A DNA stretch of 49,463 nt from positions 1 through 49,463 of the forward strand of contig JAILNC010000069.1 of the NCBI GenBank assembly GCA_024691985.1. Reading direction: 5' to 3'. Made by a program: the position numbers and the translations under genes. Below are positions 6,695 to 41,204 of this stretch, in pieces; position 1 is the stretch's first letter; every line of letters begins with the position of its first letter. Under the pieces are notes generated by a model, which saw only the letters and a program-made list of their open reading frames with translations, did no database searches and was not told the origin of the DNA. The stretch comes from Oscillospiraceae bacterium. GTDB taxonomy: Bacteria > Bacillota > Clostridia > Oscillospirales > Oscillospiraceae.

Positions 6695-8158
6695 TCAGTA
6701 GTACAGCGGATCGTTCCTGGAAAAGGCATAGGCCTTGTCGGTGATCGACGCGCTCAGCTCGCCGTTGAACTGCTCGATCAGCTTGACATAGCGCGGGTGG
6801 TAGTCCGTGGGGAAGCGGGTCATGTAGTTTATGGCATCATAGTCGATAAAGCGCCAGCGGCCGCTGGTCGGGTCGAGCACGGAGTCGTTGATCTCGCACT
6901 GGGGGGCGCGGCGCCGCATCTCCTCGATCTGCTCGTGCGGGACGTCGTTGAAGCCGCCGACCCACAGGCGCTCCAGCCCGGTCAGGGAATACAGCGGCGT
7001 GATGTCCGTCAGGCGGCGCAGCTGGCCGCCCTCCTGGTCTGCGCCGATGCTGCAGATATTCAGATGCCGCAGGTTCGTCAGCCCCGACAGCGGCGTCAGA
7101 TCATCGCAGAGCGTGGTCTGCATCTCCAGATACTCCAGGTTCGGACAGCTCGCGAGAGGCGTCGCGTCCGACCAGTTGCACATGGCGAGGACCGCGACCT
7201 CCAGCTTCGGCATCTCCGCCACGAATCCGATATCCGTCAACTGATCGTTGTGGCCGATGTCAAGGAACATGACGTCATGGCAGTAGTACAGGCCCTCGAC
7301 ATTATCGTTGTAGAGCATGCCGCCCACGGAGGGCTTGGAGGCCAGGATCTTCTGCACGTCCGTGCGGACGCTGTAATCGCTGCCGAACCATACGCGGAAG
7401 ACGACCTTGACGTCGGGGTATTTGAGGTTGATCTCCTCGCAGCGCCACATCGGCAGATCGCAGCTGTCCAAATCGACGCTCTTGAGCTGGGGCATGAGAT
7501 CCATGACCTGCTCGAGAAAAACGCCGTCGTCCCCGTCAATGGGAACGTGGTAGAGATTGATCGTCGTGTTCTCGAGATCGGCTTCGGTCCCGTAGAGATC
7601 GAAATCGTAGGAGATGAGAAGCGTCGGGAAAGCGGCGCGGAGGGCCGCGATGCTGTCCCAGCTCATGTCCGGGCGCTCGGCACCGAGATCGACGCGGCGG
7701 AGCGCGGGCAGGAGCGAGAGCGCGTCGGCCGCGGCCTCCAGCTCCTCACCGGTCAGGCTGCTGAGATCCGCGTTCTCCGTATCGGAATCGAGAACGCTGC
7801 CGTCGGGCAGGCGGACGGTGTAGAGCACGTCCACCCCCGGGTGCATCGCCGCCCAGGCGGCAATCTCCTTCACGTTTTCACTGCCGCTGAGATCCGCCGT
7901 TCTGAGCGCGGGCAGGCGGTCAAGCAGCCCGGTCTCGCCGTCGGAGAGAACGGCCGTGAGCGAGGTCGTGTCGACTGCGACCTCCTGTCCGCCGATCGTC
8001 AGAGTTTCGCTCGGCATACTTCCGCCGCCGCCGCTCGGCTGAGCGGTCGGGGCGGGCGTGCTCTCCTGCCGGCCGCAGCCGACGGCCAGCGTGCACAGGG
8101 CAAGGGCGAGCAGCAGACAGAGCAGCTTCACCGCGCGTGTGTTGTCGTGCCTTCGCAT
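6695..8158 (-). CDS. Leucine-rich-repeat lipoprotein (paralogue 3 of 3)
   Basis: A 487-residue exported lipoprotein. A signal peptide ends in the lipobox LAVGC, with the lipidated cysteine at 28, followed by a Ser/Pro/Gly-rich linker. The centre carries the family motif YSVRTDVQKILASKPSVGGM, also present in both upstream paralogues. The C-terminal third is a short LRR array: KLEVAVLAM, NLEYLEMQ, NLRHLNI and LERLWVGG, with D(I/L)TPL turns. It ends with the shared NDPLYY tail. The likely position is the outer face of the membrane. The role is unknown: protein binding is plausible for LRR, but no ligand can be read. The start codon lies 1 nt after the preceding gene's stop codon. Confidence 0.85.
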   Translation of the reverse strand: MRRHDNTRAVKLLCLLLALALCTLAVGCGRQESTPAPTAQPSGGGGSMPSETLTIGGQEVAVDTTSLTAVLSDGETGLLDRLPALRTADLSGSENVKEIAAWAAMHPGVDVLYTVRLPDGSVLDSDTENADLSSLTGEELEAAADALSLLPALRRVDLGAERPDMSWDSIAALRAAFPTLLISYDFDLYGTEADLENTTINLYHVPIDGDDGVFLEQVMDLMPQLKSVDLDSCDLPMWRCEEINLKYPDVKVVFRVWFGSDYSVRTDVQKILASKPSVGGMLYNDNVEGLYYCHDVMFLDIGHNDQLTDIGFVAEMPKLEVAVLAMCNWSDATPLASCPNLEYLEMQTTLCDDLTPLSGLTNLRHLNICSIGADQEGGQLRRLTDITPLYSLTGLERLWVGGFNDVPHEQIEEMRRRAPQCEINDSVLDPTSGRWRFIDYDAINYMTRFPTDYHPRYVKLIEQFNGELSASITDKAYAFSRNDPLYY

Positions 8159-8159
8159 G

Positions 8160-9542
8160 CTATGCTACCCCTTCCTCATCCTTGGGATACAGCGGATCGT
8201 TGTAGTAGAAAGAAAACGCCTTATCTGTATAGCCGCCGAACTGCACGCGCAGCAGGGCGTAGCGGTCGGTGAATTCCCAGTCGTTATAGCGCCAGTGGTC
8301 GGTGGTGGGGTCCTGCCACACCCAGGTGTTGATCTCACACTTGGGGTTGAGGCGCCGCATCTCGTCGATCTGCTCGCGCGGGATCCCGGTCATCTGGCCG
8401 ATCCACAGACGCTCCAGCTCCGTCAGACCGTACAGGCAGGTCATATCGCGTATCTTCATGTTGGTGGCGATGTTCAGATGCCGCAGATTCTTGAGCCCCG
8501 CGAGCGGGCTGAGATCTTCACACTCGGTGTCGAACATCTCCAGGTATTCCAGGTTCGGACAGTCGGCCAGGGGCGAGCCGTCCGACCAGCTGCACATGCC
8601 GACGATAGCCACCTCGAGCTTCGGCATGCCGCGGATAAAGCTGATATCCGTGACGGCGCCGCTGTGGCCGATGTCCAGATACTTGACGTCGTGGCAGTAA
8701 TAGAGCTGGGCCACGTCGTCGTTATGGAGAATGCCGCCCTCGGAGGGCCTGGAGGCGAGGATCATTTCCACGTCCGTGCGCACGCTGTATTTCTCGCCGA
8801 AGTTGATGCGCCAGATGACCTTGGCGTCGGGGAAATCCTGATTCAGCTTCTCCAGCACCTCGTTGGACAGCCCGCAGGAGTCCATGTCGACCGTGCGCAG
8901 ATTGGGCATGTGGCCCATGACCTCGCGCACCGCGGCGCCGTTGTCCTTGACTTTGATGTAGCGGAGATTGAGCACGCTGTCGTCCAGATCGAACTCTTTT
9001 CCGTAGAGCGTGAATGTCCAGTGCAGAGCCGCCCCGGGCAGCAGAGCGCGGATCGCGTCGATATCGTCCATGCCGAGCTTGTTGCTCTCGTCCCCCAGAT
9101 CGACGCTGCGCAGCTCGGGCAGCAGGGCAAGCAGCTCGGCCGCCTGCCGGATCTGCTCGGCGTTCATGGCGCTCAGATCCGCGGTATACGCGTCGGAATC
9201 GAGCACGCTGCCGTCCGGCAGGGTGACGCTGAAGCTCACGTCCACATCCGGGTGCGCCTCGGCCCAGGCGGCGATCTCCGCGGCGTTCGCACTGCCGCGC
9301 AGATCCAGAAAGCGCAGATTCGGGAGCTTGTCAAGCTGCGCGGTCTCCCCGTCGTTCATCACGGCCGTGAGGCTGGACACGTTCGGATCGACCATCTGGC
9401 CGCCGATCACGATACTGCCGTCGGACGGCGTTTCGCCCTGCGTCTGCTGCCCGTCCCCTTGTTTGCCGCAGCCGCTCAGCAGCAGGCAGGCGGCAAGCAG
9501 GAGCAGGAAGCACACGCGTATGCGTGAAGGTGTTTTCTGCAT
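8160..9542 (-). CDS. Leucine-rich-repeat lipoprotein (paralogue 2 of 3)
   Basis: A 460-residue lipoprotein closely related to the downstream gene. The ATG at 9542 has GGAGG 8 nt upstream and gives a clean signal peptide (MQKTPSRIRVCFLLLLAACL) with lipobox LLSGC (Cys25). An in-frame ATG five codons earlier overlaps the ribosome site and is rejected. The shared motif YSVRTDVEMILASRPSEGG is followed by LRR units KLEVAIVGM, NLEYLEMF, NLRHLNIA and LERLWIGQ, and by the closing YYNDPLYPKD. Multiple VDLGDESN/LYGK-type segments in the N-terminal half suggest degenerate repeats. Second gene of the operon. Confidence 0.85.
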   Translation of the reverse strand: MQKTPSRIRVCFLLLLAACLLLSGCGKQGDGQQTQGETPSDGSIVIGGQMVDPNVSSLTAVMNDGETAQLDKLPNLRFLDLRGSANAAEIAAWAEAHPDVDVSFSVTLPDGSVLDSDAYTADLSAMNAEQIRQAAELLALLPELRSVDLGDESNKLGMDDIDAIRALLPGAALHWTFTLYGKEFDLDDSVLNLRYIKVKDNGAAVREVMGHMPNLRTVDMDSCGLSNEVLEKLNQDFPDAKVIWRINFGEKYSVRTDVEMILASRPSEGGILHNDDVAQLYYCHDVKYLDIGHSGAVTDISFIRGMPKLEVAIVGMCSWSDGSPLADCPNLEYLEMFDTECEDLSPLAGLKNLRHLNIATNMKIRDMTCLYGLTELERLWIGQMTGIPREQIDEMRRLNPKCEINTWVWQDPTTDHWRYNDWEFTDRYALLRVQFGGYTDKAFSFYYNDPLYPKDEEGVA

Positions 9543-9589
9543 GGAAATGTCCTCCATAGATCGAATCGGAAAATCGCGGGTCCGCCAGA

Positions 9590-11230
9590 CTACTCCAGAC
9601 CGTAGACCTGCTTGCCGAACTTGCCCTTGTACTCGTCCGGCGCCTCGAGACCGCAGAGCGGGTCGAGCCAGTAAAAGCTGTATTCCTGATAGTTGTAGCC
9701 GAGCTGCTCGCGCAGGAGCTCATGGCGGGGGACCCAGTAATACTTCGGGATCTCGGGGTCGTAGGCGGAGAAGCGCCAGGCGTTGCCGTGCGGATCCGAG
9801 GTCGTGGTGTCGATCCTGCAGCCGGGCGCGGCCGCCTGCATCTTCGCGACCTGCTCGGCCGGGACCGGGGTCTCGCAGCCGATCCAGAGCCGCTCCAGCT
9901 GCGTGACGCCGTAGAGCGGCGAGATGTCGGTGATCTCCGGGCAGCCGGCAATGTTGATGTGGCGCAGGGCCGTGTGTCCCTCCAGCGGGCTCAGATCGCG
10001 GATATCGGGACAGGAGTTGAGCTCCAGATACTCCAGATCGGCGCAGTTTTTCAGCGGGGAGATATCGCTCACGCCGGTCATGGCGATGATGAGGACCTCG
10101 AGCTTCGGCATGTACCTGGCAAAGTTAATGTCATACATCTCCTCGTTGTGACCGAGATCCAGGTATTTGACGTCCGTGCAGTACATGAGAGGCGTCGTGT
10201 CGGTGATCATGCCGCCGACGCTCGGCTTCGAGGCCAGGATGCGCTCCGTGTCGGTGCGCACACTGTAGCAGTCGCCGAACCAGACGCGCCAGACGACCTT
10301 GGTCTGCGGGAAGAGATCGCGGATCGCGGTCAGCGCCCCGTCCGAAACGCCGGTGCTGTCCATGTCCAGAACGGTGCAGCGGTTCATGCAGCTGAGCACC
10401 GGGTAGAGGGCCGCGCCCTCGTCGTCGATCTGAATGCCGCGGAAGTCCAGCTTCTCCGCGTCCAGATCCAGCTCCTGCCCGTAGAGCGTGAAGCGATAGG
10501 AGAACTTCGCCCCCGGCGCGCTCGCCTTGAGCAGGGCGATATCCTCCCACCCGAGCTGACTGCTCTCCTGCGAGCCGAGCTCAACGGTCCTGAGATCGTC
10601 CATCTGCCCGAGGGCCATGGCCGCGGCGCGGGCGTCCTCATGCCCCAGCGCGGAGAGGTCGACGTCCGTGGAGGCGCTGTCCACCCGCTGTCCGCCGAGG
10701 ATGGCGGAGAATTCCAGCTGCATGTCCGGGAAAAGCTCGTGGATGCGCAGCAGATCCTGCAGCGTCAGCCGATCGCCGCCGACCTCGCCCAGACGGAGCG
10801 TGTGCAGCCTTTTGGCATAGGGGAGCACCCCCAGCGTCTCCGACAGGTTCCCGACGTCGACCCAGCTCAGATCCAGCACCTCGTCCCGGCTGTCGAAGCT
10901 CTTTCCGTTCGGCAGGGGGATACTGAAGCTGACCTCCGTCTCCGGATGCTTCTCAGCCCAGGCGGCGATCTCCTGATAGCAGCTGCTGCCGCGCAGGTCG
11001 GCGCTCTTCAGATTTTGGAACTTGTCCAGCTCCTCCACGTCCCAGCGGGATATGCAGGCCGTGACGCTCTCGGCGGAGGCCGGATATTTCTCCCCGCCGA
11101 GCCGGATCGTCCCGCCGCCGAACATGGGGGCGAAGGCCTCCGTCATGGCGGGGGCGGGATTGAAGTATACAAAAACAAACAGCGCCGCAAGAACAAGCAG
11201 CACCAGAAGCAGCCACAACAGTTTCTTCAA
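9590..11230 (-). CDS. Leucine-rich-repeat membrane-anchored protein (paralogue 1 of 3)
   Basis: First gene of the LRR operon, 546 residues. Its N-terminus KKLLWLLLVLLVLAALFVFV is an uncleaved anchor without a lipobox, unlike the two paralogues. The TTG at 11230 is chosen because GAGGAG sits 9 nt upstream; the earlier ATG at 11254 has no ribosome site and its codons contain that GAGGAG. The protein has two N-terminal copies of the LYG..LDL.. module (about 160-290), then YSVRTDTERILASKPSVGGM, LRR units (KLEVLIIAM, DLEYLELN, ALRHINIAG, LERLWIGC) and a SFYWLDPLCG tail. It is extracytoplasmic; function unknown. Confidence 0.83.
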   Translation of the reverse strand: MKKLLWLLLVLLVLAALFVFVYFNPAPAMTEAFAPMFGGGTIRLGGEKYPASAESVTACISRWDVEELDKFQNLKSADLRGSSCYQEIAAWAEKHPETEVSFSIPLPNGKSFDSRDEVLDLSWVDVGNLSETLGVLPYAKRLHTLRLGEVGGDRLTLQDLLRIHELFPDMQLEFSAILGGQRVDSASTDVDLSALGHEDARAAAMALGQMDDLRTVELGSQESSQLGWEDIALLKASAPGAKFSYRFTLYGQELDLDAEKLDFRGIQIDDEGAALYPVLSCMNRCTVLDMDSTGVSDGALTAIRDLFPQTKVVWRVWFGDCYSVRTDTERILASKPSVGGMITDTTPLMYCTDVKYLDLGHNEEMYDINFARYMPKLEVLIIAMTGVSDISPLKNCADLEYLELNSCPDIRDLSPLEGHTALRHINIAGCPEITDISPLYGVTQLERLWIGCETPVPAEQVAKMQAAAPGCRIDTTTSDPHGNAWRFSAYDPEIPKYYWVPRHELLREQLGYNYQEYSFYWLDPLCGLEAPDEYKGKFGKQVYGLE

Positions 11231-11272
11231 GCCAGATATCTCCTCGAGCACCATATTCTACTGCAATTTTAC

Positions 11273-13429: not shown

Positions 13430-14197
13430 CTAAAAAGCAGTTTCCCGCAGAATCACGATCTCTTCGCCGTCTTTCGGAATGAGCAGCTGCTCCGGGCTGA
13501 CCCCGGCAGCGTCCGCCGCTTCGCGCAGCGACTTGCGGGTCACGGTGCAGTGGTCGCAGCACTCCATGTGGATCGCGATGACCTTCGCGTTCGGCGCGGC
13601 TTTGCACACCTCGATCACCTGGGCTGCATCCATCACGATCAGCTCGCCGTTCCAGAGCGCCCCGCCCGCGTGCACGACGATCACTTCCGGCATGAAGACG
13701 TCGATCGCGTGCTTCACCGCTTCGTACCAGACCGTGTCGCCGGCCCAGTAGACGGTGGGTTCGCCCGCCGCGGAAAACACGATGCCGCTCGCCTCCCCCA
13801 TGTCCGCGAGGACTTCGGGAGACGTCCCGTGCCTGGCAGGGACTCTTCGCATCGCCACCCCGTTGAACAGGCCTCCTTCCTCCAGCGGCCGCACGTCTTT
13901 GAACCCGGCCAGCAGTTCATGACCCGCCTCTGACGGCTGGCAGAACACCGGATGAGCCTTGTCCAGGGCTTCCGCCGCCGCGGCGTCGAAGTGGTCGGAG
14001 TGGATGTGCGAGATCACGACGGCGTCTGTACGGCTCTCGGCCTCCCGCATCATGCAGGGCATGTCGACGAGGGGGCTGCGCCTTTCTCCCGCATAAGACG
14101 GCCCCGTGCCTTTTTTCGCGAAAGCCGGGTCCAGCAGGAAGACGGAGCCTCCGTAGGAGAGCCTGGCCGTCGCGTTCCGGATGAGTTGATATTTCAC
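13430..14197 (-). CDS. MBL-fold metal-dependent hydrolase
   Basis: A 255-residue metallo-beta-lactamase-fold protein of the UlaG/RomA-like type. The metal box SHIHSDHFD (H64, H66, D68, H69) is intact, with later ligands in RVPARHG, YWAGDTVWYE and IAIHMECCDH. The substrate is unknown; relatives are L-ascorbate-6-phosphate lactonase-like or nucleic-acid/phosphoester enzymes. It starts at a GTG (14197) with GGAGGTGA 9 nt upstream. It is single, running convergently towards the tRNA operon and divergently from the large secreted protein. Confidence 0.88.
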   Translation of the reverse strand: MKYQLIRNATARLSYGGSVFLLDPAFAKKGTGPSYAGERRSPLVDMPCMMREAESRTDAVVISHIHSDHFDAAAAEALDKAHPVFCQPSEAGHELLAGFKDVRPLEEGGLFNGVAMRRVPARHGTSPEVLADMGEASGIVFSAAGEPTVYWAGDTVWYEAVKHAIDVFMPEVIVVHAGGALWNGELIVMDAAQVIEVCKAAPNAKVIAIHMECCDHCTVTRKSLREAADAAGVSPEQLLIPKDGEEIVILRETAF

Positions 14198-14394
14198 AGG
14201 TCGTCACCTCCGCTGCTGCAGCAGCTTGTATCCCTAATGTATCACTTTTCCTGTCTGTTGTCGAGGCATGTTGTCGGGCTCTCCTGATTTCAAACAGGGA
14301 GAGTACATCCCGCCCGATTTCAAAGGGGCTTTATTATTATTTCTCAGCCATCCCGGGCGCGCCCCAAGCCGTTCCATTCTGTTCCAGAATTTTC

Positions 14395-14438
14395 TTGACT
14401 TTTCCAGTATGTATACTTTCCAGTATGTATACTATAAT
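14395..14438 (+). promoter_or_regulatory. Candidate phase-variable promoter with 16-bp tandem repeat
   Basis: TTGACT (14395-14400) and TATAAT (14433-14438) flank two exact tandem copies of TTTCCAGTATGTATAC (14401-14416 and 14417-14432). The present spacer is 32 bp, too long for sigma-70 recognition; with one copy it would be exactly 16 bp. The transcript would lead to the ATG at 14528. The rest of the 14198-14527 gap shows only short AT-rich stretches. Confidence 0.65.
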
Positions 14439-14527
14439 AGATAAGATATCATGGTAGATTATGGTAAAATGGTTGGAGTATCGGCTCCGACCGAATTCCG
14501 GATTCTCTTCATCAGGAGGAAGCTGAC

Positions 14528-17500
14528 ATGAAGCAATGGAAGCGCGTTCTCTCCCTCACCCTATGCCTGGTTTTGATCGGGGGCTTTTTCCCGGCCCGTG
14601 CCTTTGCTGAGGACGGGATCGAAATCAATGAGGATACCTCGACGACCCCGCCGACGATCACCGATGTGACGGTCACCTCCGGCGAACACACGGTCAGCAG
14701 CGACGTCACCGGCAGCGTCTCGGTAAGTCCGGCGGCCGGCGGCTCCGCCTCCGTCACGGTGGAAGGGGCTGTGGGCACTCTCTCCGTGGAAAGCACCGCC
14801 GGCGGCAGCGCCAACGCCACGACCGGAGACCTGGAGTACTCCCTCCGTGTCAGCAGTGACGGGGGCTCCGCGGAGTTCGCCACCGGGGCCGTTTCAGAGG
14901 AAATATATATCGAAGCGAACAACGGCGGCTCCGTGGAAGGCACGGTCGACGGCGACTTTGTCAGCGACGTCGAGGGCGGCGTCGAGGTGATCGCGGATAA
15001 CGGGAGCCAGATCACCCTCGCTGTGACAGGCAGCGTGGACGGCTTTGTCCTTGTTGACGCACACAACCAAAGCTCGGTGGAGATCATCACCGGAGACGTC
15101 TCAGAGCACATAGAGCGCACGGACTCCGGCACCATTTTCGTGACGAGCGCTTCCGGCTCCTCCTCCAGCGTGACGGCCGGCAATGTGGATGGCGTCGTCC
15201 TCTCCTATACCTTTCCCACGAGCAACTCCTCGAACTCCTATCCCGACGAGGCCCAGGGGCATTCGACCGTTCAGGTGAACGGCTCCGTCTCCCAGTGGAC
15301 ATATTGCGATTCTTACGAGTATGACGAAGAAACCAATACAAATACCACCATCTATTCCAAGCCCAACGGCAAGGTGGTATTCAAAGAAGTATCTTCGCGC
15401 GGAAGCGACGGCAGCCGCACCGATTCGTATTATGACGGCGACGGCCAGCTGCTGGTGCGATACGAGTGGGACGGGAACACCAATAAGTATTATAACGGCG
15501 CAGGTGAATTGATTTCCTCAGCAGAGTATTACGCGATTTACGAGTCGTATGAAAACTATGTGCAAACGCACGAATCTTTCGAACACTCCGCTATTGTGGC
15601 CGCGGGGACGGATTCTTCCGTCAACGTGACCGGGAGCGTGGACGTCGCGCTGTTTACCGAAGAATCGTCCTGCCTCGAGGACCGCGATCTCGCGGAGCTC
15701 GGCCTGAGTAATTACGATTACTATGGGGCCGGTTATGCCGCCGTCATCGCGGCTGACGGCAGCGTCAAGGTCGGCGAGGATCTGAACCTCAGCATCGACT
15801 TCGAAGAAGACAACGATCGCTACGGCGAGTATATCTGCATCTCCGGCGCGCTGCTGGACGGCACCGCAACCGTGGAGATCAACGGAGACGTCAATGCGTC
15901 GGTCGGCACGAATCCTTTCACCGTCATCCTCCCCGGCGACACCCGCATCGACCCCAACGCTTATTTCTTTGAGGCCTCCGCGCTGAGCCATCACACCATC
16001 GGCGTCAACAACGAAGGCGGCAAGGCCACAGTCGGCGGGGACGTCAACGTGACCGAGAGCCAGTACGGCATCGGCCTCGACACCGGCAAGAAGTATGTCG
16101 TCAACGCAAACGGCAGGCAGGACCTGGACCTGGACATTGAAAACCTCCAGGAATTCGTTCTCAACTACCTCGGGCTGGAAGGCTCCGAATACGATCTGTC
16201 GAGCAGCTTCCCGGAGGGCTTTTTCGACGGGCTTGCCGATCTTATCGCAGAGGTGGCCGCCATCGCCCGGGATCCGGGCAGCGCGGATGCCGCATACAAC
16301 GCGGAGGAATACTTCGCCGCGCCGCTGCCGACCGATTCCGTGACCACGGTGGCCGGCGACGTCAGCGCCGCCGGCGGCATGTACGCCAAGGGCATGTACG
16401 TCCGCTCCAACGGCGACGTCACGGTGAACGGGAACGTCGAATCCGGCAACCTGGGCTTTACGGAAGAACAGCTCCTCACAGACGAGTATCTTGAGGCGGC
16501 AAACAACGACTGGACTTCACAGTTCCATTATTACGTAGCGTATGACGACAACGATCAGATCCTGCAGGCGGTAGAGTGGGATGAATACGGTTACCCCACC
16601 AAGGTCGTCGATGAAAACGGACAGGAGCTTGAAAGCGGGAGCTGGAACTACCGGCAGGCCGAGCACGTCTCGGAGCTGACGGATGAACAGAAGGCCAGAC
16701 TGACGGATATGACCGGCATCCACAACCAGGGCATCGTTGTGCAGGGCTACTCCGGCTGGCTCTCCGACGAGACCCGCCAGGCCATCTACGATGTGATCAA
16801 GGATCAGGATTATTACGGATCCCCCGTCTGGAGCTATTACTACGGGAGCGAGAACTTCCTCCCCTCGGACGTAGTCCTGGAGAGCGGGAGCTATTTCTAC
16901 GACGGCAACGGACATGACATGTCCCCGGATGAGGCTTTCTGGACGGCCATGGCGAAGGCCATCCTCGCGGACGGCGACGCGGCCAAGGCCACGGTCGAGG
17001 GCGACGTCTCGGCCTACGGCGCGCTGGTGACCAAGGGCGTCGCCAACTACGACGGCGACGTCACGGTCGGCGGCCAGCTCAGCGCCGACGGTCAGTCCGC
17101 GGTCGGCATCCTCTCCGTCGGCGACGACGCCGTCGCCTCCGTGGGCAAAGGCATCACCGTCTCGGGCGTCAGCAGCGCGGCGGGCATCGCCTCCCTCGGC
17201 GGTATGACCGCGCTCACCGGTGATCTGGCCGTGACGAGCGAGGAACACGCCACGGGCCTTCTGGTCCGCGCGGGCGAGGTACGCGTGGACGGCGACGTCA
17301 CGGTGGACGCGGAAAACGGAACCGGCATCAAGACCTTCTCCCTTGACAACGGCGCTCTCGCCCTCATGGCGATGATGATGCAGGGTGGACAAGGCGGTTA
17401 TCCGACCTACTACGAAGCCGTTTGGAACTGCATCAACCGCTATGCGGACGGTATGGCCCCCGGCGAGATCCTTCCCTATTTCTTCGCTGAGGACGAATCT

Positions 17501-18793
17501 CAGACCGTGGTCGTGGACGGCACGATCACGGCGGCTACCGGTATCACCGCCCTTGACAACGCAATGAGCGCCAAGCTCGCGGAGGATTTCCTGGTCAGAG
17601 CCTACTACGGGGAAGGCGACTACGCCCTCTATGTCGAGCAGGGCAAGAACCCGCGGGATATGACGAACGATGAGCTTGAGGCTCTGATCGAACAGGGCGC
17701 TTACAACTCCGCTCTCTACCAGGCCCAGCTGGCGATCCGCGCGCTCGGAGAGCAGGAGGACAGCGGCCCCGACATCACGGTCTGGAAGGTCGCGACCGGG
17801 GAGAATCCCGAAGGCGGGAACGAGGTCGTCAACCACGGCGTCGAGAGCTTCTCCTGGAAGGATTTCGTGGCCAACTGGACCTTCGTCCTGCCGGGTGAAG
17901 AATACGGAGTGGAAGCGTACGACTGGCCGGACGATGATGTGGTGACCTTCGACTTCACCGGCTCGACCTACGCCGACCAGGTGCAGGCGGACATCAACTA
18001 CATCGTCAAGGTCAATTCCGTCCAGGATACGGACGGCAACGCTCTGGACCTCAGTTTACTCACCGTGTCCGGCACGACCGATCATCAGGGCTTCGCGACC
18101 GCGAGGGAGGGTGAGATCCTGACCCTCTCGTCCGGCAGCGATCAGTATGTGCTCAACCGCGTCTGGAACGGCGAGGGCGAAACCGACGACGGCTGGGGCG
18201 TCGAGCGCCAGCGCAGCGGCAGCGAGAGCTTCAATTACTCGGTAATGCGCGGCGGCGGCATCCTGCTCAACGCGGTGCTGGAAAAGATCAACACCGAACC
18301 CGATCCCGACCCGAACCCCGATCCGGATCCCGACCCGAACCCCGATCCGGATCCCGACCCGGATCCCGATCCCGACCCGGATCCCGACCCGAATCCCGAG
18401 CCCAATCCCGAGCCTGTGCCGCAGCCCGCGATCGTGGACGAGGCAAAGGGATATGGGGCCGAGGCGCTTGGAGGCGGCAAGATCCGCGTCACCTGGGCGG
18501 ATATCATCCGCGCTTCCCACAGGGATGCAGAGCTCGTCTTTGACGGCACGCACATGAAGACGACCGTGTTTGACATCTGCGGCGACTATGCCCACGCCAT
18601 TGATGAGCGGCCCGACGTCACCGTGACGATCGAGTTCACGGACGGCGGAAAGATCGTCAGCATGACGTTCGAGCCCGGGACGGACGTCCTCGGCGCGCTC
18701 GAGGACGCGGGGCTGAACGACTACGACCCCATCCCCTTCACGCAGCTCGCCGATGTGGTCGGCGTCCCGTACGCCGAAGTCTCCGCCGCCTGA
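14528..18793 (+). CDS. Large secreted repeat protein, 1421 aa
   Basis: Exported protein of unknown function. The signal peptide MKQWKRVLSLTLCLVLIGGF ends at ARAFA|ED (cleavage after residue 27). The body is acidic and full of short Gly-Asp-Val turns (NGDVTVNGNVES, EGDVSAYGALVTKG, GGQLSADGQSAVG) that look like a right-handed beta-helix or bead-like adhesin fold. A Pro-Asp/Asn linker of about 43 residues (encoded at 18294-18424) separates a C-terminal domain of about 115 residues. No LPxTG, SLH or lipobox is present, so it is secreted or bound by that domain. AGGAGG lies 8 nt before the ATG. Its promoter may switch (14395-14438). Confidence 0.88.
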   Translation: MKQWKRVLSLTLCLVLIGGFFPARAFAEDGIEINEDTSTTPPTITDVTVTSGEHTVSSDVTGSVSVSPAAGGSASVTVEGAVGTLSVESTAGGSANATTGDLEYSLRVSSDGGSAEFATGAVSEEIYIEANNGGSVEGTVDGDFVSDVEGGVEVIADNGSQITLAVTGSVDGFVLVDAHNQSSVEIITGDVSEHIERTDSGTIFVTSASGSSSSVTAGNVDGVVLSYTFPTSNSSNSYPDEAQGHSTVQVNGSVSQWTYCDSYEYDEETNTNTTIYSKPNGKVVFKEVSSRGSDGSRTDSYYDGDGQLLVRYEWDGNTNKYYNGAGELISSAEYYAIYESYENYVQTHESFEHSAIVAAGTDSSVNVTGSVDVALFTEESSCLEDRDLAELGLSNYDYYGAGYAAVIAADGSVKVGEDLNLSIDFEEDNDRYGEYICISGALLDGTATVEINGDVNASVGTNPFTVILPGDTRIDPNAYFFEASALSHHTIGVNNEGGKATVGGDVNVTESQYGIGLDTGKKYVVNANGRQDLDLDIENLQEFVLNYLGLEGSEYDLSSSFPEGFFDGLADLIAEVAAIARDPGSADAAYNAEEYFAAPLPTDSVTTVAGDVSAAGGMYAKGMYVRSNGDVTVNGNVESGNLGFTEEQLLTDEYLEAANNDWTSQFHYYVAYDDNDQILQAVEWDEYGYPTKVVDENGQELESGSWNYRQAEHVSELTDEQKARLTDMTGIHNQGIVVQGYSGWLSDETRQAIYDVIKDQDYYGSPVWSYYYGSENFLPSDVVLESGSYFYDGNGHDMSPDEAFWTAMAKAILADGDAAKATVEGDVSAYGALVTKGVANYDGDVTVGGQLSADGQSAVGILSVGDDAVASVGKGITVSGVSSAAGIASLGGMTALTGDLAVTSEEHATGLLVRAGEVRVDGDVTVDAENGTGIKTFSLDNGALALMAMMMQGGQGGYPTYYEAVWNCINRYADGMAPGEILPYFFAEDESQTVVVDGTITAATGITALDNAMSAKLAEDFLVRAYYGEGDYALYVEQGKNPRDMTNDELEALIEQGAYNSALYQAQLAIRALGEQEDSGPDITVWKVATGENPEGGNEVVNHGVESFSWKDFVANWTFVLPGEEYGVEAYDWPDDDVVTFDFTGSTYADQVQADINYIVKVNSVQDTDGNALDLSLLTVSGTTDHQGFATAREGEILTLSSGSDQYVLNRVWNGEGETDDGWGVERQRSGSESFNYSVMRGGGILLNAVLEKINTEPDPDPNPDPDPDPNPDPDPDPDPDPDPDPDPNPEPNPEPVPQPAIVDEAKGYGAEALGGGKIRVTWADIIRASHRDAELVFDGTHMKTTVFDICGDYAHAIDERPDVTVTIEFTDGGKIVSMTFEPGTDVLGALEDAGLNDYDPIPFTQLADVVGVPYAEVSAA

Positions 18794-39928: not shown

Positions 39929-41146
39929 TTAATCACGCTCCGGGGCCGCGGCGCAGATCCTCATGCACCCGTTCACCGTCAGCACGCCCCAGGTGATCCT
40001 GTTTGCGGGGGAGGCCGGCGGGATGAACACGGCCTCCGCGACGCAGTCGCTCTCGATTTTGCCGAGGTTCGTCACGCAGCAGCCGCCGCGCTCGGCATAG
40101 CCGAACATCCTGCCGCCCACAAAGCGCCCCGCCGCGCTGTCAAAGCCGCCAAGCGCCGAGATCGCCGCGGCGTCGAGCAGCTCCGGGCGCATGCGCAGAT
40201 AACAGGCAAGCACGAGCATCTCCCGCTGCGGCTCTCTTCGGATCGAGGAAACCTGCATCGCGGCGATCTTCGCAAGCGGGAAAAGGTCGTCGTTCTTTCT
40301 TCTGACCGAAACGCTGAAGGCCGTGGAGCAGTTGCCCATCGCGCCCTGCGGCCAACCTTTGACGCGGCGGCGGATATCCGCGGCGATGACGAGCTTCTCC
40401 GTGTTCTCCTCCACCATCATCTTCGCGATCAGCCAGTCGTTGACGGAGACGCCCTCCCGCCTGCAGCGGCTTAGGATCTCCCCGAGCTCGTCGCCGCCGA
40501 TGGTTTTGATCTCCCTCTTTATGGGGTTTTCGCGGAGAAAACGCTTTTCGAACGCCAGGTATTCCTCATAGGATACGCGATGCCGTTCCCTGTCCCACCT
40601 GCGGTTCGCGTCGCTGACCACGATTTTGCTGATCAGCGGCAGGTCGGCCTTCTTCGGCAGATCGTCAAGCGAGGCGATCAGCCGCTCTCCGACGAAGGCC
40701 GGGGCAACGCCCTTTACATAGTGCTCCGCAAATTCCCGCACGAGCTGCAGGAGGCCCCGCCCGTCACAGAGCAGGTGATGGACCGTGAAGAGGACGTCGA
40801 AGCCGTCCCCGCCCGGATAGACCAGCAGGCGCAGCAGGCTCTCCCGACTCACGTCCCAGCCCCGCGACGCGAGGGCGTCGTAGTCCCGCTGCCATGCAGA
40901 GACGTCGGTCTTCTCAAGGACAGGGATCTCCAGGCTCTCCTGCGCTTGATAATACAGCGCCCCGCCGTCGTCCTGCGCGATCAGGCTGCGCAGGAAGGGG
41001 TGGGCCTGCTGCAGGGCACGGACGCTCCCGCGCAGCTTTTCCGCGTCGTACGGCGAGAGGATGCGCGCCAGGATGCCGAAGTGCATGTTCGGGCACATAT
41101 AGTGCGCCCGCTCGCTGCGGATGTAGTTTCTGCCGCTCCCATCCAT
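39929..41146 (-). CDS. Condensation-fold acyltransferase
   Basis: A 405-residue protein of the condensation/wax-ester-synthase-like acyltransferase superfamily. The active box HHLLCDG (H123, H124, D128, G129) matches HHxxxDG. The protein ends SPANRITWGVLTVNG, typical of the second subdomain. No carrier-protein or adenylation domain is attached and no NRPS gene is near, so it is likely an alcohol or polyol acyltransferase. AGGAGGG precedes the ATG at 41146. Upstream lies an AT-rich repeated operator (41161-41204). Confidence 0.8.
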   Translation of the reverse strand: MDGSGRNYIRSERAHYMCPNMHFGILARILSPYDAEKLRGSVRALQQAHPFLRSLIAQDDGGALYYQAQESLEIPVLEKTDVSAWQRDYDALASRGWDVSRESLLRLLVYPGGDGFDVLFTVHHLLCDGRGLLQLVREFAEHYVKGVAPAFVGERLIASLDDLPKKADLPLISKIVVSDANRRWDRERHRVSYEEYLAFEKRFLRENPIKREIKTIGGDELGEILSRCRREGVSVNDWLIAKMMVEENTEKLVIAADIRRRVKGWPQGAMGNCSTAFSVSVRRKNDDLFPLAKIAAMQVSSIRREPQREMLVLACYLRMRPELLDAAAISALGGFDSAAGRFVGGRMFGYAERGGCCVTNLGKIESDCVAEAVFIPPASPANRITWGVLTVNGCMRICAAAPERD

Positions 41147-41160
41147 GCGCCGTCCCTCCT

Positions 41161-41204
41161 GTTATCTTATGTTAATTATGTTATGTAAATTATATTATGA
41201 TAAC
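41161..41204 (-). promoter_or_regulatory. AT-rich repeated operator upstream of acyltransferase
   Basis: A 44-bp, almost purely AT island bounded by GTTATC and GATAAC, containing TTATGTTA twice (41167, 41176) and TTATGTAA (41181). The minus-strand TATAAT at about 41189-41194 is a likely -10. The repeated half-sites are typical of TetR/MarR-like operators; the regulator is not in the neighbourhood. Confidence 0.5.

Follow-up and report, generated by a model that had tools for sequence, protein, structure and literature searches.

A probable tandem duplication of a whole promoter spacer upstream of a secreted-protein gene candidate in an Oscillospiraceae genome

The locus and its genes

The stretch of DNA analysed here (the window; 49,463 nucleotides of an Oscillospiraceae bacterium, contig JAILNC010000069.1) contains a 330-bp intergenic gap that separates a hydrolase gene from a divergently transcribed gene of 1421 codons (Table 1). 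Within this gap lie, in order, TTGACT, a 16-mer, an identical 16-mer and TATAAT, with zero extra bases between them. An initial annotation had described two promoter boxes 32 bp apart whose spacer is exactly two 16-bp copies, and both its letters and its coordinates are confirmed. The T at the sixth position of the -35 box is the second commonest base there, found in 15 of 56 TTGAC..TATAAT pairs with spacers of 15-18 in the same genome.

Table 1. Features of the divergent intergenic region and the genes that flank it
Feature	Position	Strand	Basis or remark
Metallo-beta-lactamase-fold hydrolase gene, divergent	13430-14197	-	neighbour, not part of the switch
-35 box TTGACT (5/6 consensus)	14395-14400	+	read from sequence
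Spacer copy 1, TTTCCAGTATGTATAC	14401-14416	+	sequence and Tandem Repeats Finder
Near-palindrome AGTATGTATACT, copy 1 (possible operator)	14406-14417	.	
Spacer copy 2, TTTCCAGTATGTATAC, identical to copy 1	14417-14432	+	sequence and Tandem Repeats Finder
Near-palindrome AGTATGTATACT, copy 2	14422-14433	.	overlaps first base of -10
-10 box TATAAT (6/6)	14433-14438	+	read from sequence
Alternative extended -10, TATGGTAAAAT (rival promoter)	14460-14470	+	independent of repeat number
5'-leader stem-loop of the 1421-codon gene	14471-14492	+	9 pairs and 4-base loop
Ribosome binding site AGGAGG	14514-14519	+	read from sequence; just upstream of ATG 14528
1421-codon gene	14528-18793	+	signal-peptide-like N-terminus (by eye), repeat-rich body, D/P-rich linker, C-terminal domain

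The leader sequence (14445-14545) folds with a z of -2.25 (3/200 shuffles equally good), and its stem-loop is followed by no run of T. The inverted repeats that typically flank an invertible promoter are absent, the sole inverted pair listed in the intergenic region being 8 nt. Rfam yields no accepted family (two matches at E up to 1 score 18.2 against a gathering threshold of 100 and 14.3 against 45), and a generic sigma-70 scan of 13500-15500 makes no call at TTGACT/TATAAT, its sole call being on the minus strand at 14264-14236. Elsewhere in the window an AT-rich 14-mer occurs in three imperfect copies (82% matches) at 41162-41203, in a possible promoter region just 5' of the minus-strand ORF 39929-41146.

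The product of the 1421-codon gene had been described as a secreted protein with adhesin-like repeats. Its signal-peptide-like start makes secretion likely, and the repeats are there to be seen, but calling the protein an adhesin is a guess: it shows no adhesin domain, and no LPXTG wall anchor is visible by eye in the translation. Pfam and NCBIfam match the protein in the D/P-rich linker only, far below cut-offs, and residues 1-1251 have no sequence relatives in the PDB at E up to 0.1. A whole-protein search of 60 genomes (37 of the genus, own genome included) gives matches in 40; those outside the own genome overlap the D/P-rich linker, the one exception being G097, where the N-terminus is weakly matched (E 3.4e-4). 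The C-terminal domain (18476-18790, about 100 residues) recurs in two more proteins of the own genome, at 60 and 68% identity. Across 102 genomes of the genus it occurs in two, three times in the own genome and once, weakly, in G036; judged from these sequences, it is a small lineage-specific family.

The neighbouring hydrolase gene is found at E <= 1e-40 in one of the 102 genus genomes, its own. The region 13426-14211 matches a gene in a metagenome-assembled genome from goat ileum (L092) at 94% identity over 771 nt and a gene in one from water-buffalo rumen (L091) at 88% over 787 nt. The flanks of the hydrolase loci (up to 3 kb; 7 of 11 loci compared) show no blastn match. The gene seems to have been acquired horizontally and moved as a single gene, while loss elsewhere, rather than transfer, is a possible account of the same distribution. 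Also near the locus, three consecutive minus-strand ORFs at 6695-11254 have leucine-rich-repeat (LRR_4) matches.

The tandem repeat and promoter spacing

The 16-bp tandem in the promoter (period 16, 100% matches, Tandem Repeats Finder score 66) is not a chance product. Simulating the window 40 times with a first-order Markov model yields no exact two-copy tandem of period 14-20, and the window's only other exact tandems of period 10-60 lie inside the D/P-rich coding repeat, at 18302-18391. A sample of the own genome (20 stretches, 278,155 bases) contains two exact tandems of period 10-60, both of 12-mers, and none of period 16. The 16-mer itself is not repeated elsewhere in the own genome: the 8 further sites at <= 3 mismatches all carry 3, and the reversed 16-mer finds 10 sites. 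Among the 102 genus genomes it has two further matches at <= 1 mismatch (reversed control, 5), in G020 and G026, neither of them between promoter boxes.

Promoter spacing in this genome (2.39 Mb in 139 contigs, 79% complete) can be read from 71 TTGAC..TATAAT pairs with spacers of 12-42, a count in which one TATAAT on contig C80 is entered twice for the two TTGAC upstream of it; the reversed control gives 5. Spacers of 13 (n = 1), 15 (n = 2), 16 (n = 9), 17 (n = 34) and 18 (n = 11) are followed by 14 longer ones spread over 20-42. With 54 of 71 pairs at 16-18, the ordinary sigma-A spacing holds in this lineage, and the arrangement at 14395-14438, the only one with a 32-bp spacer, breaks the rule. 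Across the genus, TTGAC..TATAAT pairs with spacers of 30-36 have matches in 98 of 102 genomes; the longest direct repeat within such a spacer (period >= 8) is 9 nt among the first 77 matches of the listing (G001 to part of G013), against 16 here.

Judged from sequence by this tally, one copy of the 16-mer would give a spacing that the sigma factor uses, and two copies would not. Promoter scores, which combine textbook hexamer frequencies with the spacer tally of the own genome rather than the organism's mapped start sites, separate the two forms. The best promoter in the one-copy form is TTGACT-16-TATAAT, scoring 15.1, and 16 of 3000 dinucleotide shuffles score as high; the initial annotation had called this arrangement near-consensus, and the shuffles bear it out. 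The one-copy form would thus be a strong-looking sigma-A promoter. In the assembled two-copy form the best is TGTATA-17-TATAAT at 10.4, reached by 756 of 3000 shuffles. The companion claim, that the two-copy state offers no good -35, stands insofar as this score is unremarkable, but it must be qualified by the presence of both TGTATA-17-TATAAT and the extended -10 TATGGTAAAAT. For comparison, a relative of the protein, encoded on contig C33, has TTGACT-17-TATTAT upstream, with no repeat by eye, and this promoter scores 16.9.

Duplication of the spacer and its alternatives

Our preferred explanation, to which we give a probability of roughly 60%, is that the 16-bp spacer of a sigma-A promoter, TTGACT-16-TATAAT, in front of the secreted-protein gene was exactly duplicated in tandem, leaving an allele that is weak and in principle reversible. 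A strong promoter appears only once one exact repeat is removed, which would be difficult to account for had the repeat not arisen within a functional promoter; the ancestral state would be the one-copy form. RNA polymerase would be unable to contact both boxes across 32 bp, so the two-copy allele should be weak and transcription should have dropped. What transcription remains would start from TATAAT with a poor -35, or from the extended -10 downstream. Slippage or short-repeat recombination could delete one of the copies and so bring the promoter back, and it is this single step that would make the allele reversible. As to origin, GACT stands just before copy 1, and copy 2 follows TAC with a T. 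Purely as a suggestion, a slip between ACT triplets might have produced a 17-bp duplication, which then shed a single T from the second T run to reach the present 16-bp period.

The 1421-codon frame is intact and has a good ribosome binding site, which counts in favour of this reading, although the intact frame also argues against long silence. TATAAT with TGTATA at 17 may still be functional, and TATGGTAAAAT could drive the gene whatever the copy number. If either of these promoters transcribes the gene, the duplication would be neutral and the copy number irrelevant. Both occur in the two-copy form, and the relative on C49 has a putative promoter that scores just as low (10.6, close to the 10.4 of the two-copy form). 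The TGn of an extended -10 is also commoner in the genome's other long-spaced pairs, preceding the -10 in 4 of 13 pairs with spacers above 18 against 5 of 57 pairs with spacers up to 18; the four may be extended -10 promoters, and the TATAAT of Table 1 has no TGn in front. A neutral duplication nevertheless seems unlikely: the alternative promoters score at the level of shuffled sequence, whereas the one-copy promoter lies far above chance.

The repeat had alternatively been read as twin operator half-sites. In such a reading AGTATGTATACT would be the site of a repressor or an activator, present twice so that binding across the promoter is cooperative. In its favour, each copy carries a near-palindrome, and AGTATNNATACT is present in both, over the -35/-10 interval. 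At <= 1 mismatch AGTATNNATACT has 24 sites in the genome, including the pair here, where the reversed control has 12, and by eye at least two further sites (on C32 and C94) stand a short way 5' of an ATG. This excess is modest, however, and the motif includes the -10-like TATACT; AT-rich promoters would match AGTATNNATACT anyway, which may explain it. Only three AGTATNNATACT sites in the genome are exact, two here and so one elsewhere, and 14 of the 22 other sites, inspected by eye, have no common layout. The paired site is found in one of 102 genus genomes, the own genome only. A 16-bp period sets the copies on opposite faces of the helix, and an operator leaves the 32-bp distance between the boxes unexplained. 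We rate a doubled operator as very unlikely. The two copies together could also fold into a 12-pair stem with loop TTCC, which is not unusual (z -1.56; 16/200 shuffles equally good).

Spacer duplication, the explanation preferred here, has a stronger form, a dedicated phase switch, in which two-copy OFF and one-copy ON cells coexist and are kept by selection on the surface or secreted protein. The promoter geometry (a spacing of 32 against 16-18, and the shuffle scores) fits such a switch, the product of the gene looks like a secreted protein with repeats, and a tandem repeat does lie between -35 and -10, as in spacer-length phase-variable promoters. But phase-variable promoters usually carry a multi-copy, highly mutable tract, even if this is not strictly required, and classical tracts have many short units; here the unit is long and there are just two copies of it. 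Short-unit tracts change far more readily than a two-copy 16-mer loses a unit. Regain is rarer again, and the one-copy form offers no tandem template for it. An occasional, in principle reversible duplication is therefore favoured over a dedicated switch. Of three related proteins of this genome, those on C33 and C49 have by eye no such repeat upstream; the third, on C37, comes from a gene truncated at the 5' end.

No variant was found in the collections searched. A DNA search of the genus with 14150-14650 returns only the locus itself and an unrelated 26-bp match (2 of 102 genomes), in genome collections that comprise one genome per species. The one-copy 28-mer, sought across 394 genomes of the order at <= 3 mismatches, reveals no second allele; its one match, a near-one-copy promoter (3 mismatches, 16-bp spacer) from another family, with none in the reversed control, stands before a different gene that we take from its translation to be phosphofructokinase-like. 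That such a promoter occurs there speaks for the preferred explanation. The one-or-two-copy pattern has 0 matches in a broad collection of genome contigs, from which the own and very near genomes are possibly absent, and no second allele was found in viral contigs, phages or plasmids, some of these collections possibly being without them as well. We think occasional mutation likelier than a dedicated phase switch, which appears doubtful. It is likewise only a tentative idea that the locus is a long-unit, one-step switch, in which duplication of the whole spacer silences, exact loss restores, and the secreted-protein gene exists in both forms within cell populations. As for the 26-bp match, it links 14284-14309 (96% identity) with the beginning of a small gene of G076, in a neighbourhood that is phage-like by eye, and may be a relic or chance.

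Comparison with known systems

In porA of Neisseria meningitidis and hifA/hifB of Haemophilus influenzae, repeats set the distance between -35 and -10 and their variation alters transcription (PMC3899988), a precedent that also speaks for phase switching at the present locus. As there, repeat number here would set the -35/-10 distance and thus the transcription of a gene for a surface protein. The tracts described in that source are poly-G or TA repeats, porA varying by single nucleotides, whereas here a 16-bp unit is doubled, taking the spacer from 16 to 32, and is known from one assembly. A second parallel is CT533/lpxC of Chlamydia trachomatis, where a poly(A) tract in the predicted upstream -35/-10 spacer varies in populations (PMC4514472). 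Both cases involve a change of spacer length between predicted promoter boxes, but the CT533/lpxC tract is a homopolymer with observed population variation, and the 16-bp tandem has a single allele found. In pil1 of Streptococcus gallolyticus, 22 short GCAGA repeats vary in number (PMC3894217). These too are tandem repeats 5' of a gene for a surface structure or protein, and their number changes expression; in the account given by that source, however, they act through leader-peptide length and attenuation, with promoter spacing not involved, unlike the proposal made here. Deletion rates from PMC3519483, considered as a guide to copy loss, are unsuitable, the repeats in the part of the source consulted being 38 bp long and about 1 kb apart.

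A literal-word search of the open-access literature, covering titles and the beginnings of abstracts, found no report of a whole-promoter-spacer duplication, a result that proves little. If copy number at this locus varies in nature, spacer-length switching would no longer be confined to short simple repeats but would include duplication of a whole spacer; if it does not, the locus is a good example of one duplication disabling a promoter. By analogy with the systems above, the proposed mechanism is of a known kind, a repeat-driven change of spacer, with an unusual unit, the whole spacer.
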